A DNA stretch of 9,130 bases, taken from the NCBI GenBank assembly GCA_027021085.1, contig JALUVB010000163.1:1-9130 (forward strand), written 5' to 3'. Made by a program: the position numbers and the translations under genes. The first letter of the stretch is position 1; each line of letters opens with the position of its first letter. Under the pieces are notes generated by a model, which did no database searches, had not been told where the DNA came from, and was given only the letters and a program-made list of their open reading frames with translations. Below are positions 4,886 to 9,130 of this stretch, in pieces. Source of the stretch: a bacterium (GTDB taxonomy: Bacteria; CAIJMQ01; JAADFP01).

Positions 4886-4959
4886 TAAGGGGAGACCACA
4901 CCCTATGGTCTATAGGCTAAGAGTTGTGAGTCATCAGTCCTGAGTTGTTAGTTCCCTGT

Positions 4960-4975
4960 CCCGGCGTATGCCGGG
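4960..4975. repeat. REP-like hairpin CCCGGC-GTAT-GCCGGG
   Basis: A perfect 6-bp GC stem with a GTAT loop, embedded in the heptamer-repeat stretch. This resembles widely dispersed intergenic REP-type palindromes, but copy number in this genome cannot be seen from one window. Confidence 0.5.
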
Positions 4976-5110
4976 GCGCCTATGCCTCCATGTTAGACTA
5001 TGGTCTAAAAGTTGTGAGTCCCCAGTCCTGAGTTGCGAGTTCCGCCTATTCCCCCGCCTGTATCTTGTATCCTGCCTATTCCTTCACTTACTTGCTACTC
5101 CCTCTCCGTC

Positions 5111-5130
5111 ATTCCTGCGAAAGCAGGAAT
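5111..5130. repeat. REP-like hairpin ATTCCTGC-GAAA-GCAGGAAT
   Basis: A perfect 8-bp stem closed by a GAAA loop, preceded by CGTC and followed by CTATTCCCCC. Sequences of the form GTCATTCC-GCGAAAGC-GGAATC are familiar dispersed repeats in several bacterial phyla. I assign it to that type by resemblance only. Confidence 0.6.
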
Positions 5131-5244
5131 CTATTCCCCCGCTACTATCTACTCACTACCCGCTGCTCACTATACTCCCAGTCTAAAGTCTCAAGTCTAA
5201 GGTCTATAGTCTATTGTGGCCTATAGTCTAATCGGATACCTGGT

Positions 5245-5313
5245 TGATAACGCCCAAGCTCAGCGACTGGGAGCGCGCCAGCGGTCACAGTTCGCTGGAT
5301 TGAATTGTTAGAA
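5245..5313 (-). other. attC recombination site, terminal cassette
   Basis: A 69-bp site. On the plus strand it begins TGATAAC and ends GTTAGAA (inverted core sites), with inner arms AGCGACTG and CAGTTCGCT that pair apart from one extra T. The loop is about 18 nt. It begins 1 bp after the stop codon of the coiled-coil protein gene. It shares the 20-bp string TAACGCCCAAGCTCAGCGAC (5248-5267) exactly with the next attC at 5767-5786. The core at the low-coordinate end reads GTTATCA on the gene strand, departing from GTTRRRY. Confidence 0.8.
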
Positions 5314-5314
5314 G

Positions 5315-5752
5315 TTAAAACTTATCTGGGGACTCTTTAATTTCCTTCTCGTATGTTTTTATAATTTTATCGTTGATACTTAATTGAACTTGCCGTGTCA
5401 GCTTATGTAGATTTTCTTGTGTTCTGAAATGACCATCCAAACAAAATTTGATTACTCTTAAAGCTATCTGCTTGTATTTTCTGCTTCTTAATCTCAATGC
5501 AAGCTTGTTTAAATTCTCTCTATGGGAAACTAACTCTAGTTCATATTCTATTCTTTGCTCTTTGGACTCGGAGTTAATTTTCTGTAGTTGAGAGAGAGAT
5601 GCGTGATAATCAAGTAAATATGTTTCTATTTCCCAGAGCAATCGTTGATCTTCCTCTTTGCGATTTAATATTAATTGGTTTCTTTGGGCTACAAGACCAC
5701 CACCAATAGCCAAAGTAGCTCCAAACAAGGTATATAATAGTTGTTCGTTCAT
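5315..5752 (-). CDS. Small membrane-anchored coiled-coil protein, unknown function
   Basis: I do not recognise a family. The 145-residue protein begins with one hydrophobic segment (about residues 5-23, LLYTLFGATLAIGGGLVAQ). A long charged helical region rich in Glu, Lys, Leu and Gln follows, probably coiled coil, with a short basic tail. It would be a single-pass inner-membrane protein with most of its mass on one side. It occupies its own cassette between attC sites at 5764-5820 and 5245-5313. The ATG at 5752 is chosen. A TTG at 5776 would extend it by 8 residues, but that codon and most of the extension lie inside the attC site, and the added residues (GVRRKIK) look like read-through of the recombination site. 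The ribosome site before the ATG is weak (AGAAGAAAG). The low-complexity helical sequence makes homology guesses unsafe. Confidence 0.65.
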   Translation of the reverse strand: MNEQLLYTLFGATLAIGGGLVAQRNQLILNRKEEDQRLLWEIETYLLDYHASLSQLQKINSESKEQRIEYELELVSHRENLNKLALRLRSRKYKQIALRVIKFCLDGHFRTQENLHKLTRQVQLSINDKIIKTYEKEIKESPDKF

Positions 5753-5763
5753 CTTTATCTTTC

Positions 5764-5820
5764 TTCTAACGCCCAAGCTCAGCGACGGCGGTAGCCGTTC
5801 GCTGTAGCGCCTTGTTAGCC
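5764..5820 (-). other. attC recombination site between nuclease and coiled-coil cassettes
   Basis: A 57-bp site with textbook layout. On the plus strand TTCTAAC and GTTAGCC form the outer cores. The inner arms AGCGA-CGGC and GCCG-T-TCGCT pair around a GGTA loop with one unpaired T, the kind of extrahelical base that orients integrase on folded attC. The TAA stop of the nuclease-like gene (5815-5817) lies within the inverse core, a hallmark of a cassette gene trimmed to its attC. Confidence 0.9.
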
Positions 5821-6951
5821 ATTTGTTTCTTGAAATTCGCTAAGAAGTTCTTTAAGAATCTGAATTATTATATCAACCTTCGTCTCCCACTCTGTAATCC
5901 GGTAGGTTGGGTATCTATTCTGGTAATCATCTGGAACAGTTAGTCCTAACTTGCCGATGACCAAATCTTTTAAACGATCCCTGAATGACTCGACCAGTTC
6001 ATTTCCTTTAAGTGCACCGAAGTAAATTTCTAAACGTCCGTGCGAGAAAACTGTTAATACGGTTCTATGGCCACTTTGTGGCCATCTTACGAGAAATGAT
6101 CCGACAGTTTTTCCTGTACCCCAAACAATCTCACCAGAAAGTGATTTACATTCTTCAAACAGTTTTTTTATTGCACTCACACTTTTTTCTGGAAGCTGTG
6201 CATGTGCATCGGCGAAAAAACTATCATAATCCCATTGTTTCTTAGTTCCCTTTGAGACAGTAACTGTTCTCTTAACCTGACGGGCTTCCTCAGTGTAGCC
6301 GAATAGCATTGGCACAACAATTGTCATGTTATCATGCCTATACTGGCGTGCTTCGACAAGTAAAACTTCAGATCTTTCCAGTTGTTTGTTCAAAAAGTCC
6401 ACAACACTTTTAAGCTCCATCGGCGCATCTTCAAGAAAGAAAACTAATCTGACCTGACCTTCTCTTAAACTATCTTCAACTTGCTCAAAAAAAGAATCCA
6501 CGGCAATTTCTTGATCAGGTTGTAGTTTGTGTAAAGATTCCTCAAGAGAAAGTCCATTATCTTTGGCTGATTTCTCAGCAAGATCACGAATCATTTCTTT
6601 GTCCCAGTAATAGTGTCCATTAGCTGCGTATTCAAGCATTTGGCCGATTACTTCACGGCGGGAACGTGTGTCTTCAAAGCGTTTACACTCAACAAAAGTG
6701 GGCATTGCACTTTGATCAACAAAGAAAAAGTCAATACTCCATCGGTCAGTTCCAGTGTTCGGATCAGGAACAGGCATTTCCCTGGCTATTTGCAACCAGC
6801 GTCGGGGGTCTTCTGGATTAATTTGATTTCCTGGTAATAAATCAGGGTTTTTTTCGAGGATGAGCTGAAGCTCGCGTTCTTCATTCTTACACCGAACTCG
6901 TTCCATAGGCTTTGTAGAGCCATCATTCTCTACAACATAAGCAGTTGACAT
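5815..6951 (-). CDS. PD-(D/E)XK nuclease-like protein (cassette-borne)
   Basis: Predicted nuclease or nuclease-derived DNA-binding protein of 378 residues. The N-terminal third carries a PD-(D/E)XK pattern: E26 in NEERELQLIL, then D74 in DRWSIDFFFVD, then E88-C-K90 in PTFVECKRF, then the helix motif GQMLEYAA with Q104 and Y108. This resembles the core of NucS/DUF91-type and restriction-like endonucleases, in which Asp, Glu and Lys hold the metal and Gln-Tyr belongs to the following helix. Residues about 150-378 hold mixed alpha/beta sequence that I cannot assign. The ATG at 6951 follows GGAGG with 9-nt spacing. It is the only gene of its cassette, driven by the promoter at 7013-7041, and its TAA lies in the attC. 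A role in defence against foreign DNA is an inference from fold and cassette setting; no partner gene is present. Confidence 0.7.
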   Translation of the reverse strand: MSTAYVVENDGSTKPMERVRCKNEERELQLILEKNPDLLPGNQINPEDPRRWLQIAREMPVPDPNTGTDRWSIDFFFVDQSAMPTFVECKRFEDTRSRREVIGQMLEYAANGHYYWDKEMIRDLAEKSAKDNGLSLEESLHKLQPDQEIAVDSFFEQVEDSLREGQVRLVFFLEDAPMELKSVVDFLNKQLERSEVLLVEARQYRHDNMTIVVPMLFGYTEEARQVKRTVTVSKGTKKQWDYDSFFADAHAQLPEKSVSAIKKLFEECKSLSGEIVWGTGKTVGSFLVRWPQSGHRTVLTVFSHGRLEIYFGALKGNELVESFRDRLKDLVIGKLGLTVPDDYQNRYPTYRITEWETKVDIIIQILKELLSEFQETNG

Positions 6952-6995
6952 GAGTCATGGCCTCCATTTTAATATAGATAACATTCTTTTTTATA

Positions 6996-7042
6996 TTTCT
7001 TCTCTCAATTAAATAATATATTGAAAAAGGCAGGGTGTCAAA
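6996..7042 (-). repeat. 47-bp promoter repeat, copy A
   Basis: 46 of 47 positions are identical to 8454-8500; the single difference is A at 7032 against G at 8490. The block holds the -35 and -10 boxes and ends at TTTCTTC on the plus strand. Exactly 20 nt separate it from the outer edge of the core-like 7-mer in both copies. Confidence 0.9.
7013..7041 (-). promoter_or_regulatory. Strong sigma70-type promoter driving the nuclease-like cassette
   Basis: On the minus strand a perfect -35 TTGACA (complement of 7036-7041) and a -10 TATTAT (complement of 7013-7018) are separated by exactly 17 bp. The ATG at 6951 is about 60 bp beyond the -10 box. In this copy only, GGCAG and CTGCC flank the -35 box and could form a 5-bp stem over it. 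Confidence 0.75.
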
Positions 7043-7058
7043 CTGCCGAGTTGCCTCA

Positions 7059-7072
7059 GGGAAAATTTTCCC
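7059..7072. repeat. Perfect palindrome GGGAAAATTTTCCC
   Basis: A 14-bp perfect inverted repeat with no spacer, 17 bp upstream of the -35 box of the promoter at 7013-7041. The position suits an operator or UP-like AT-rich element. It is absent from the second promoter copy. Function is not established. Confidence 0.4.
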
Positions 7073-7176
7073 GAAAAGGGGAGAAAAATTAAAACGAATT
7101 GTCTCACTTAAAATCTTTATAAAAGCTATTGCTATGGTTGTGGGGGCATTCCCTGACACCGGGGGCATTATAGGGA

Positions 7177-7635
7177 TTAGGTAATATTTTTCTCTTGTAG
7201 CTTTTTTAATTCCTGGACATCCAATTTATCTTTAGGCCGAAGGGAATTCTCTTTTAACTTAATCAAACCTTCGGCATTTAAATATCTTATTTTTATACCT
7301 TTCTCTGTAATAAATATATCACTGTAGGGCAGTAAGTCTTGATAAGTATTTCCTTTTATTAAAGTAAATACATCCAAAAGAAATTCTTCTACAATACGAA
7401 TACATCCTTCCTCTAAGGTGAAATCTTCTGGATTCAACTCTCTGGCAGAACCTTTTCCAAACGATTCAAGGCAGGTGAGAAGTTTTTTGATGTTTTCTTC
7501 AGATTTCTCTACTATAATATCCACATCCATAGTAACTCTTGAAAAACCACAAATATCTACGGCCAAGCCATCTACAAGAATATAGTTAATGTTATTTTTG
7601 CTTAACCCTTCCAACAATTCTTCGAACGTTTTCAC
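7177..7635 (-). CDS. MNT/AbiEii-like nucleotidyltransferase family protein
   Basis: A 152-residue protein of the nucleotidyltransferase superfamily used in toxin-antitoxin and abortive-infection systems. The N-terminal pattern YILVDGLAVDICGFSRVTMDVDIIVE (18-43) matches the family form GG-A...R.T.D.D: T35, D37 and D39 are present, and D88 in LLDVF may be the third acidic residue. The first Gly of the usual GG is Asp (D22), which may weaken nucleotide binding. The C-terminal segment LIKLKENSLRPKDKLDV (124-140) matches the family K...R.KD..D pattern. The start is GTG at 7635, 44 nt inside the preceding small ORF; an in-frame stop lies just upstream, so no earlier start is possible. Translation is probably coupled. 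The TAA at 7177-7179 overlaps a core-like site. Substrate unknown; a regulatory or antitoxin-type role is inferred. Confidence 0.75.
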   Translation of the reverse strand: MKTFEELLEGLSKNNINYILVDGLAVDICGFSRVTMDVDIIVEKSEENIKKLLTCLESFGKGSARELNPEDFTLEEGCIRIVEEFLLDVFTLIKGNTYQDLLPYSDIFITEKGIKIRYLNAEGLIKLKENSLRPKDKLDVQELKKLQEKNIT

Positions 7636-7759
7636 TTTTAAAATCTATTCTTTCTCCCCGAAGTTCTTCAACCATTTTTTTCAGTTTAAATGCTCTCTTT
7701 AACGGAGATACCTTTTGTGCATTCCCTGCCTCTTTTCGTATCATATTTTCTTTAGACAT
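7592..7759 (-). CDS. Small basic protein overlapping the nucleotidyltransferase gene
   Basis: A 55-residue ORF starting at ATG 7759 and ending TAA at 7592, predicted as MSKENMIRKEAGNAQKVSPL at the N-terminus followed by a Lys/Arg-rich helical stretch (KRAFKLKKMVEELRGERIDF) and a basic tail. It lies directly after the attC core (7785-7791) and overlaps the nucleotidyltransferase start by 44 nt in another frame. That fills the only gap in the cassette and suggests a bicistronic pair. A G-rich ribosome site (seven G then TGAAC) sits before the ATG. I recognise no family. It could be a small nucleic-acid-binding partner or antitoxin, or only a leader peptide coupling translation of the downstream gene. 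Confidence 0.6.
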   Translation of the reverse strand: MSKENMIRKEAGNAQKVSPLKRAFKLKKMVEELRGERIDFKSENVRRIVGRVKQK

Positions 7760-7784
7760 GTTCACCCCCCCATTATTCCCTTGC

Positions 7785-7836
7785 GTCTAACATCCAGGCT
7801 CAGCAACGGATAGCCGTCCGCTGGTTTTTGTTAGGC
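7785..7836 (-). other. attC recombination site after the membrane-protein cassette
   Basis: A compact 52-bp site. On the gene strand GCCTAAC and GTTAGAC are perfect matches to the RYYYAAC and GTTRRRY core consensus. The inner arms CAGC..ACGG and CCGT..GCTG fold around a short ATAG loop with unpaired bases between stem blocks. It lies 15 nt after the membrane-protein stop codon and 25 nt before the start of the next ORF. Confidence 0.88.
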
Positions 7837-7851
7837 TTTTCAAATTTCTTC

Positions 7852-8406
7852 TCATTCGGGGTTTTCGCCTGTTTGCTGGCCTTTCGCTTTTACGAAATCT
7901 GGATACCAAGCGGTAAATTTAATAGCAGCAACCAGAACAAGAATATTAATTACCCAATCGAGCATATAAGGATTATCCACATACAGGTATGCTAAAATGG
8001 CGTTGATGGCGAATGCAATACACCAGACTGTGGTGATGGTGCGGTTCGTGCTGTAAAATTTAGGTGTATTCCAGAACTTCGGATCAACCTGCTCGTATGC
8101 ATATTGGATGGTAAATGGCTTACGAACAGCTAACGATATCGCAGCGATTATAAACATCGCGGTATCGCTGAGAGGTGTAGAATAGCGGTCTACCCAGACA
8201 ACCTTTGATAAAAAAGAAATTGCTGTCAGAACGATGAAGAATATTAATGTGCCCAGATCGAGAATCTTTATATTTCGGTTTTTGATATTTCTGACATTTA
8301 AAAAAAGCACTACTACTGTGGCCGCCAGGGTGGCTATTTGATAATTGTTGCGGCCACTTAGTGTCCAGAATACTATCCAGGGCAAGAAACTTAAAAAAAT
8401 ACCCAT
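7852..8406 (-). CDS. Polytopic integral membrane protein, unknown function
   Basis: A 184-residue inner-membrane protein with about six hydrophobic segments (roughly residues 3-17, 22-38, 49-70, 78-95, 122-142 and 148-166) and a hydrophilic C-terminal tail. Notable conserved-looking positions are FLPWIVFW near the start, LDLGTLIFF, SLAVRKPFTIQYAYEQV in the middle loop, FWNTPKF before segment five and FTAWYPDFV at the end. I believe it belongs to an uncharacterised bacterial membrane family, but I cannot name it. The ATG at 8406 follows AAAGGGGGAAAAT, a good ribosome site. It stands alone in its cassette, between the core at 8434-8440 and the attC at 7785-7836, and is served by the promoter at 8471-8499. 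An overlapping frame starting at 8422 is a shadow. Confidence 0.8.
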   Translation of the reverse strand: MGIFLSFLPWIVFWTLSGRNNYQIATLAATVVVLFLNVRNIKNRNIKILDLGTLIFFIVLTAISFLSKVVWVDRYSTPLSDTAMFIIAAISLAVRKPFTIQYAYEQVDPKFWNTPKFYSTNRTITTVWCIAFAINAILAYLYVDNPYMLDWVINILVLVAAIKFTAWYPDFVKAKGQQTGENPE

Positions 8407-8453
8407 ATTTTCCCCCTTTCATTTCTCCGTTTTGTCTAACGGCCTTTTTGCTG

Positions 8454-8500
8454 TTTCTTCTCTCAATTAAATAATATATTGAAAAAGGCGGGGTGTCAAA
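8454..8500 (-). repeat. 47-bp promoter repeat, copy B
   Basis: Near-identical to 6996-7042, with one mismatch (G at 8490). The spacing to the adjacent core 7-mer is the same as in copy A, so block and core appear to travel as one unit. Confidence 0.9.
8471..8499 (-). promoter_or_regulatory. Strong sigma70-type promoter driving the membrane-protein cassette
   Basis: On the minus strand TTGACA (complement of 8494-8499) and TATTAT (complement of 8471-8476) are separated by 17 bp. The -10 box is 31 bp from the GTTAGAC core and about 65 bp from the ATG at 8406. It points into the array, so it could also feed cassettes further downstream. Confidence 0.75.
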
Positions 8501-8631
8501 TTTTTCTCTTGGTGACCTACGAGAGTGTCTTTAATGCAATATAAGTATAGAAAAATTATTGTTATCGTCCAGGCCCAGGGGGCCTGCCAGTGGGGGCGTT
8601 GTAGGAGGCTGTTAAGCGGGGATTACTTATT

Positions 8632-8895
8632 CTATTCATAATGAGTCCACATGCGGATTACCTTTACTGTTTTAATATCTGTTAGGACTTGATATACGAG
8701 ACGATGTTGAATGTTAATACGACGGGAGTAAGCTCTGGAGAGGTCCCCCACCAATTCCTCGAACGGTGGGGGCTGTTGGAATGGATTCTCCCTCAGAATT
8801 TCTAACAAAACCTCAGCCTTTGGACGAAGCCCCGCTGCTGAAAGCTTTTTGGCATCTTTTTGCGCTTGCTTTGTGAATACTATATGCCAACTCAC
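8632..8895 (-). CDS. Txe/YoeB-family mRNA interferase toxin
   Basis: A ribosome-dependent endoribonuclease toxin that cuts translated mRNA when freed from its antitoxin. From the GTG start the protein has 87 residues and aligns end to end with Txe/YoeB: FTKQAQKDAKKL (7-18), PFEELVGDL (44-52), YSRRINIQHRLVYQV (56-70) and the C-terminal RMWTHYE (81-87). The expected catalytic residues are E46, R65 and H85, with Y86 next to it, in the places used by YoeB (E46, R65, H83). The GTG at 8895 is preferred: its first bases overlap the antitoxin TGA (GTGA), and AAGGA lies 9 nt upstream. The ATG at 8916 adds 7 residues without a usable ribosome site. It forms an operon with the upstream Phd/YefM gene and appears intact. 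Confidence 0.92.
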   Translation of the reverse strand: MSWHIVFTKQAQKDAKKLSAAGLRPKAEVLLEILRENPFQQPPPFEELVGDLSRAYSRRINIQHRLVYQVLTDIKTVKVIRMWTHYE

Positions 8896-9130
8896 CACTT
8901 TAAATCCTTGCTGCATCTCTTCACAGGAGTGTTAAGTCCTTTTCGGATGGATTCTCGCATTCCCGGAATTGACAGCAGATAAAGTGTTTCTTGAATTGCT
9001 CTCCAATCTTCCTCGGCGATAAGGACAGCATTGGCCCTCTTGCCTGTAATCTGGATGGGATGATGCGATGAGGCAGCTTCATCCAGTAGCTTGTAGAGCT
9101 TTGCCCTTGCTTCGCTGGCTGTTAATGTCA
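8892..9130 (-). CDS. Phd/YefM-family antitoxin, start codon cut by the window edge
   Basis: Neutralises the adjacent Txe/YoeB toxin and probably represses its own operon by binding the promoter. The visible 78 residues begin TLTASEARAKLYKLLDEAAS, the typical Phd/YefM DNA-binding N-terminus. PIQITGKRANAVLIAEEDW follows, then the toxin-binding C-terminal region ETLYLLSIPGMRESIRKG. The last two visible bases read TG on the gene strand just before the Thr codon, so the start codon (ATG, or GTG/TTG) lacks only its first base, outside the window at 9131. The full protein would be 79 residues, normal for the family. Its TGA overlaps the toxin GTG by 4 nt, implying translational coupling. It is missed if only complete ORFs are considered. 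The operon promoter lies outside the window. Confidence 0.88.
   Translation of the reverse strand, partial: TLTASEARAKLYKLLDEAASSHHPIQITGKRANAVLIAEEDWRAIQETLYLLSIPGMRESIRKGLNTPVKRCSKDLKW

Follow-up and report, generated by a model that had tools for sequence, protein, structure and literature searches.

In integrons, each array is served by one leader, in which a promoter (Pc) directed into the array lies just upstream of the GTT core that starts the first cassette; in class 2 integrons, the Pc promoters lie within the attI2 site (PMC8876359). Outside class 1, attI sites are poorly described and are not detected by IntegronFinder (PMC9024848). Clusters of at least two attC sites with no nearby integrase gene, called CALINs, were about as common as complete integrons in a survey; degradation of integrons has been proposed as their origin (PMC9024848), and their cassettes can be mobilised in trans (PMC12444791; PMC9668308). 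Delta-attI-type cassettes of class 1 and class 2 integrons carry attI-derived sequence in place of attC, within the array and after an ORF that lacks an attC (PMC12901181); these sequences are mostly remnants of 14-18 nt in integrase-bearing mobile integrons. Gene-less promoter cassettes of the Vibrio superintegron, which end in attC, supply internal promoters that express the cassettes following them (PMC11014356).

The 9,130-nt stretch analysed here (the window) is contig C163 of assembly GCA_027021085.1 (genome G000), a fragmented MAG with an estimated contamination of 3.9%. Two junctions in its cassette DNA, A and B, resemble attI/Pc regions in that a promoter-like sequence aimed into the array precedes a GTT core. 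They differ from attI/Pc regions in that they lack an adjacent intI gene, occur in several copies per genome and stand in tandem, and their attI role is putative. As in CALINs, attC arrays are present with no integrase gene nearby; CALINs are defined by their attC sites alone, whereas the arrays described here have a conserved promoter-bearing leader. Unlike the Delta-attI-type remnants, these leaders are approximately 100 bp long and include a whole promoter, and unlike the Vibrio promoter cassettes they lack an attC. Repeated promoter-bearing attI-like leaders without intI were not described in the literature that we searched, which left most subscription papers out of reach.

All cassettes in the window are on the minus strand. 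Read along that strand, a YefM/YoeB pair (9128-8632) is followed by junction B, a 184-aa ORF, an attC, nucleotidyltransferase-like ORFs (7765-7177) and junction A, after which come a 378-aa ORF, an attC, a 153-aa ORF, a further attC, repeat-rich intergenic DNA and ordinary chromosomal genes. The individual features are listed below; the leader model is described further on.

8632..9128, minus strand: toxin-antitoxin pair of the YefM/YoeB type, located upstream of leader B where the contig ends, with no detected attC behind the pair
8434..8553, minus strand: leader B (upstream block, promoter and core); leader-model match at 8431-8560(-) and model seed, with about 130 bp alignable with the copy on contig C289
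8531..8553, plus strand: block (TAATGCARTATAA..) common to B, C289 and C103, reading away from the array
8494..8499, minus strand: -35 box TTGACA of leader B (pattern search, promoter score)
8471..8476, minus strand: -10 box TATTAT of leader B, 17 nt past the -35 box
8434..8440, minus strand: candidate attI-like core GTTAGAC of leader B, which fits GTTRRRY; the 184-aa cassette starts here
7852..8406, minus strand: 184-aa membrane-type protein, first cassette behind leader B, with weak likeness to the VC0807 family
7784..7838, plus strand (bottom strand given): attC closing the 184-aa cassette; attC model seed, fold z -1.8
7177..7765, minus strand: nucleotidyltransferase-like ORF (152 aa, weakly DUF6036/AbiEii-like) and a 57-aa ORF; no attC detected behind them
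6976..7105, minus strand: leader A (promoter and core); leader-model match at 6973-7104(-) and model seed
7036..7041, minus strand: -35 box TTGACA of leader A (pattern search, promoter score)
7013..7018, minus strand: -10 box TATTAT of leader A, 17 nt past the -35 box
6976..6982, minus strand: core GTTATCT of leader A, degenerate and not a full GTTRRRY; the 378-aa cassette starts here
5815..6951, minus strand: 378-aa protein, first cassette behind leader A, with weak likeness to the PADLOC candidate family PDC-S11
5763..5822, plus strand (bottom strand given): attC closing the 378-aa cassette; attC model seed, fold z -3.2
5315..5776, minus strand: 153-aa ORF without a family match, second cassette behind leader A
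5244..5315, plus strand (bottom strand given): last attC of the array; attC model seed, fold z -4.0

The window also contains a perfect 14-nt palindrome, GGGAAAATTTTCCC, at 7061-7074, just ahead of the -35 box in leader A. B lacks this palindrome; a related stretch is found before a promoter-like site on contig C53 (L014:235-270). Degenerate intergenic repeats (TAGACTATAGACC-like, AGTAGTGAGTAGCG-like and CCTGTCATGCCTGCGGAAGCAGG-like) occur at 4900-5240 of the window, at L013:1-90 and 2120-2310, and at L053:2300-2600. These repeats flank arrays and may be the cause of contig breaks.

The original prediction rested on the repetition of a promoter-bearing block at the two junctions, and this observation is confirmed as real and as more than a chance repeat. 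A repeat search of the window pairs 6979-7042 with 8437-8500 (64 nt, 89%), self-BLAST of positions 5200-9130 finds 57 bp common to A and B (93%, E 1.9e-19), and the 47-bp block was correctly described as 46/47 identical, with a single base difference over its length. Across the whole assembly, the pattern TTGACACCC[C/T]GCC..TATTAT has exactly two matches, at 8471-8499(-) with no mismatch and at 7013-7041(-) with one, and a reversed control pattern does not occur there. Both junctions carry TTGACA-17-TATTAT on the minus strand, upstream of attC-bearing cassettes and aimed at the next cassette, as had been claimed; the promoter-like score of 11/12 with 17-nt spacing, reached in A and in B, was matched by none of 200 dinucleotide shuffles. 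Some details needed correction. The distance from the -10 box to GTT is indeed equal in A and B, but we count 30 nt rather than 31 bp, and the 20 nt directly left of the core show 14 identities, not 11. Beyond the block, the two copies can be aligned on the left side as proposed, but only weakly.

One suggestion had been that each junction is a long attC with an embedded promoter. The three attC-like sites of the window have TAAC..CTCAGC..GTTAG in common, and their bottom strand, which corresponds to the plus strand of the window, folds with bulged stems; two of the three fold at z -3.2 and -4.0, and the third (7784-7838) at z -1.8. A model seeded with four attCs of G000 found no match at junction A or B, whose folds are not clearly better than shuffles (z -1.6 and -1.4). 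Neither junction shows the paired R and L boxes on a folded bottom strand that mark an attC. Because A and B miss the attC model and fold close to shuffles, this suggestion is unsupported. The same results bear on the idea that A and B are promoter-bearing gene-less cassettes, or cassettes with promoters of their own, related by chance. Such promoters are documented in Vibrio gene-less cassettes (PMC11014356) and in some resistance cassettes (PMC8876359), and the leaders of the window do sit inside the array. However, A and B have no terminal attC of their own, the promoter precedes the GTT core rather than lying within the following cassette, and homologous leaders start arrays beside chromosomal genes; we regard this explanation as improbable.

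These homologues were found by BLAST and with a sequence model. BLAST of junction B against 98 genomes gave matches in its own genome only, among them a third, diverged copy on C289; the copies in relatives were reached only with a profile model (R1) built from A, B and C289. This model finds two more copies in G000 (C140 and C287, both at E 1e-10). In G001, a genome of the same genus, it finds a strong match on C103 (7e-12) and weaker ones on C90 (1e-6) and C24 (5e-4). Exact 40- and 30-nt patterns had no match in viral and GTDB contigs, nor did junction B in plasmids and phages, and Rfam gave no match. A match on C53 lies upstream of an ordinary-looking promoter and was left out of the leader count, and weak R1 matches on C255, C130, C47, C15 and C96, which look like ordinary promoters or coding sequence, were dropped.

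All eight leaders of this family (f1, G000 and G001) score 10-12 of 12 against TTGACA/TATAAT with a spacing of 16-18 nt, and none of these scores is reached by more than 3 of 200 shuffles. The distance from the -10 box to the core ranges from 24 to 37 nt, so that the 30 nt seen in A and B is not universal. The core is GTTAGNN in five of the eight, GTTCGGC in C289, degenerate in A and lost in C287. Most leader ends have ATAAAARAGAAT directly before GTT, and identity drops past GTT. This end resembles the published minimal attI2, AATAAAATGTTRRRY (PMC12901181), a likeness that is short and AT-rich. More speculatively, the TAATGCARTATAA block that reads away from the array in B, C289 and C103 could be the remnant of a divergent integrase promoter.

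Every one of the five G000 leaders is on a contig with attC sites. The attC model matches C163, C289, C287, C140 and C293, all of which carry a leader except C293, where the match sits at the contig end and the upstream sequence is out of sight. That the three leader loci found without reference to attC all fall on attC contigs has a chance of approximately 6e-6 by length, an indicative figure that assumes independence among loci. In most cases, the leader forms the start of the array and a chromosomal gene lies upstream, whereas leaders A and B of the window are internal. On C289, a dehydrogenase gene is followed by the leader, a 349-aa NucS-like (PDC-S11) cassette, an attC, a 180-aa cassette and an attC; on C140, a divergent 278-aa gene is followed by the leader, a TIR/Cap12-like cassette (PDC-S35), an attC and a 290-aa ORF. 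The order on C287 is a three-attC array, repeats, the leader, a HicA-type cassette and an attC-like sequence at 2610-2680 recognised by eye only. The attC model finds sites in G001 as well, where C103 has lepA, the leader, a 545-aa ORF, an attC and a 106-aa ORF. It finds no attC behind the copies on C90 and C24, which are relic-like. The whole-genome search did not refute the original prediction, as copies scattered without core sites would have done: all strong copies are at cassette arrays, each of them next to attC sites.

Several first cassettes behind leaders resemble defence genes: a TIR/Cap12-type effector (PDC-S35), NucS-like proteins (PDC-S11), a GmrSD fragment-like ORF and a weakly AbiEii-like nucleotidyltransferase, in addition to toxin-antitoxin pairs (L052:2857-3699; L013:852-1901 and 143-685; window 5815-6951 and 7177-7635). 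A solitary attC-like site also occurs in G001 (L062:7700-7778, contig C20), between mutS-like and methyltransferase-like genes, with no leader found.

The distribution of the copies speaks to two other explanations. The original prediction had raised a small element targeting attC, and a small promoter-carrying mobile element that inserts next to cassette cores would be consistent with several copies per genome in different places and with the quick divergence left of the block. Against such an element, most other copies head arrays next to chromosomal genes, we saw neither terminal repeats nor target duplications, no strong-scoring copy lies away from an array start, and in a second family of genomes (below) this role belongs to a different leader family. 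We judge this origin very unlikely. Alternatively, the promoters could be independent chromosomal ones, with cassettes that inserted at attG-type sites and were kept once expressed. Integration at sites that are neither attI nor attC has been published (attG, mentioned in PMC12901181 and PMC12444791), and array positions differ between G000 and G001, as at lepA. In empty-site comparisons, G000 lacks an array at lepA and offers no intergenic sequence there that can be aligned, and the genes upstream of the C289 leader have no match in G001. Independent promoters, however, would not align with one another over 57-130 bp in a stretch that ends close to the core, and we give this possibility hardly any credence.

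In the second family (f2, genomes G003 and G004), array starts carry a different leader, consisting of an extended -10 sequence, TGCTATCAT (TGCTACCAT in one copy), followed by 33 nt and GTT (ATT in one copy). Four such leaders were found: one on G003:C22, one on G003:C32 and two on G004:C10. The G003:C22 leader and the second G004 leader retain a TTGACG -35 box; the two leaders that lack it score like shuffles. G003:C32 and G004:C10 represent a single chromosomal locus, where 4.36 kb of upstream sequence aligns at 76%, taking in a large cyclase-like gene (named by sequence reading rather than by family search) and ending approximately 10 nt before the core. The cassette ORFs beyond this point show no relationship to each other (best E 0.2), and past the cassettes the alignment resumes in the downstream flank. 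Therefore, at this locus the leader is conserved and the cassettes have been replaced, as would be expected of an attI/Pc platform. The second leader of G004 is preceded by a copy (90%) of 63 bp from the end of the cyclase gene, and we see no attC between this copy and the ORF before it. This arrangement points to a tandem duplication of flank and leader, and suggests how tandem leaders arise. REP-type (Y1) transposase-like genes, recognised by eye, lie beside or inside f2 cassette loci (L064:5025-5690 and L169:3020-3706).

A search with the integron integrase model TIGR02249 gave no match over the cut-off in seven genomes of the class (G000 and six others, 64-96% complete), and no intI lies beside any leader copy. 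The stronger matches come in two pieces that skip roughly model positions 185-237, which we take to be the location of the integron-specific extra domain, as expected for XerC/XerD. G000 has exactly two Phage_integrase genes (tyrosine recombinases), both Xer-like, and G003 and G004 also have two each. The absence of intI from one genome through incompleteness would be unsurprising, but its absence from all seven by chance would be surprising; an integrase may reside on unbinned or extrachromosomal DNA. The presence of leaders at the heads of arrays is odd because no sampled genome of the group has a recognisable integron integrase to load cassettes. Real IntI genes were encountered in two genomes reached via a helicase gene and labelled Desulfonema limicola and Omnitrophota, three full-length and over the cut-off in G100 (L187 = C20, L188 = C2, L189 = C192) and one in G101, broken by a contig end (L186 = C17). 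The regions examined in these two genomes contain no R1-type leader.

The window has the head-to-tail attC array of a complete integron and, in incomplete genomes and with the window ending 0.5 kb upstream of leader B, no intI beside it; it is on the integrase that membership as a complete integron fails. With three attCs and no integrase in the genome, it agrees with the definition of a CALIN, and leader A, whose derivation from an attI is putative, follows ORFs without a detected attC, as do the attI-derived sequences of Delta-attI-type cassettes.

We consider it probable that A and B are attI/Pc-like leaders, present in multiple copies and here duplicated in tandem, of arrays that have no integrase and that received their cassettes in trans or before integrase loss. 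Each leader would combine an attI-like site with a Pc of its own, namely a sigma-70-type promoter directed into the array, and the GTT core 24-37 bp past the promoter (30 in A and B) would be the joining point for cassettes. The leader promoter, about 30 bp upstream, would drive transcription of a cassette joined there, between the G and the TT. A genome would hold several such leaders, each with its own short array and no adjacent integrase gene, and cassettes would be loaded by an integrase acting in trans or since lost. The window probably contains two leader-array units in tandem that arose by a duplication including some left flank, as in G004, because the nucleotidyltransferase ORF before leader A has no detected attC and the left flanks of A and B are weakly alignable. 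The repeat, the promoter-like sequence, the array-head position, the lineage-specific conservation and the cassette replacement at one syntenic locus are direct observations, from which we infer that the leaders are transcribed and have attI activity, by which route the duplication in the window arose, and that the integrase acted in trans or was lost. Among the origins first suggested, duplicated Pc-attI relics fit best, with the surprise that no copy is beside intI and that the class yielded no integrase.

The leaders could instead be inert, with the attI/Pc of an ancestral integron duplicated, its intI long lost, and the arrays left as frozen CALINs in which the promoter block persists only to express the first gene. 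The lack of an integrase in the class, the short arrays with degenerate cores, the relic-like copies C90 and C24, and the proposal that CALINs are degraded integrons (PMC9024848) are all consistent with this history, which we take seriously while doubting it. The wholly different cassettes behind the conserved leader in G003 and G004 imply that exchange continued after these two species split, and the leaders are family-specific yet have kept promoter and core. The reading that we prefer, of attI/Pc-like leaders loaded in trans or before integrase loss, could be extended to a lineage-wide "distributed integron", with several chromosomal attI/Pc leaders per genome, each serving a few expressed cassettes that are kept and refreshed without a linked integrase, by a visiting integrase or a novel cassette-loading recombinase. 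This extension is tentative and, in our view, rather unlikely.

If it is true that integrase-less clusters carry their own promoter and an attI-like leader, then expression of such clusters is possible, and they may still take up cassettes in trans. The pair of G003 and G004 arrays, with different cassettes at the same locus, makes the idea of leader loading directly testable, and the leaders provide candidate attI sequences from a group in which none has been described. Because several of the first cassettes are defence-like, these leaders may express a changing defence repertoire.
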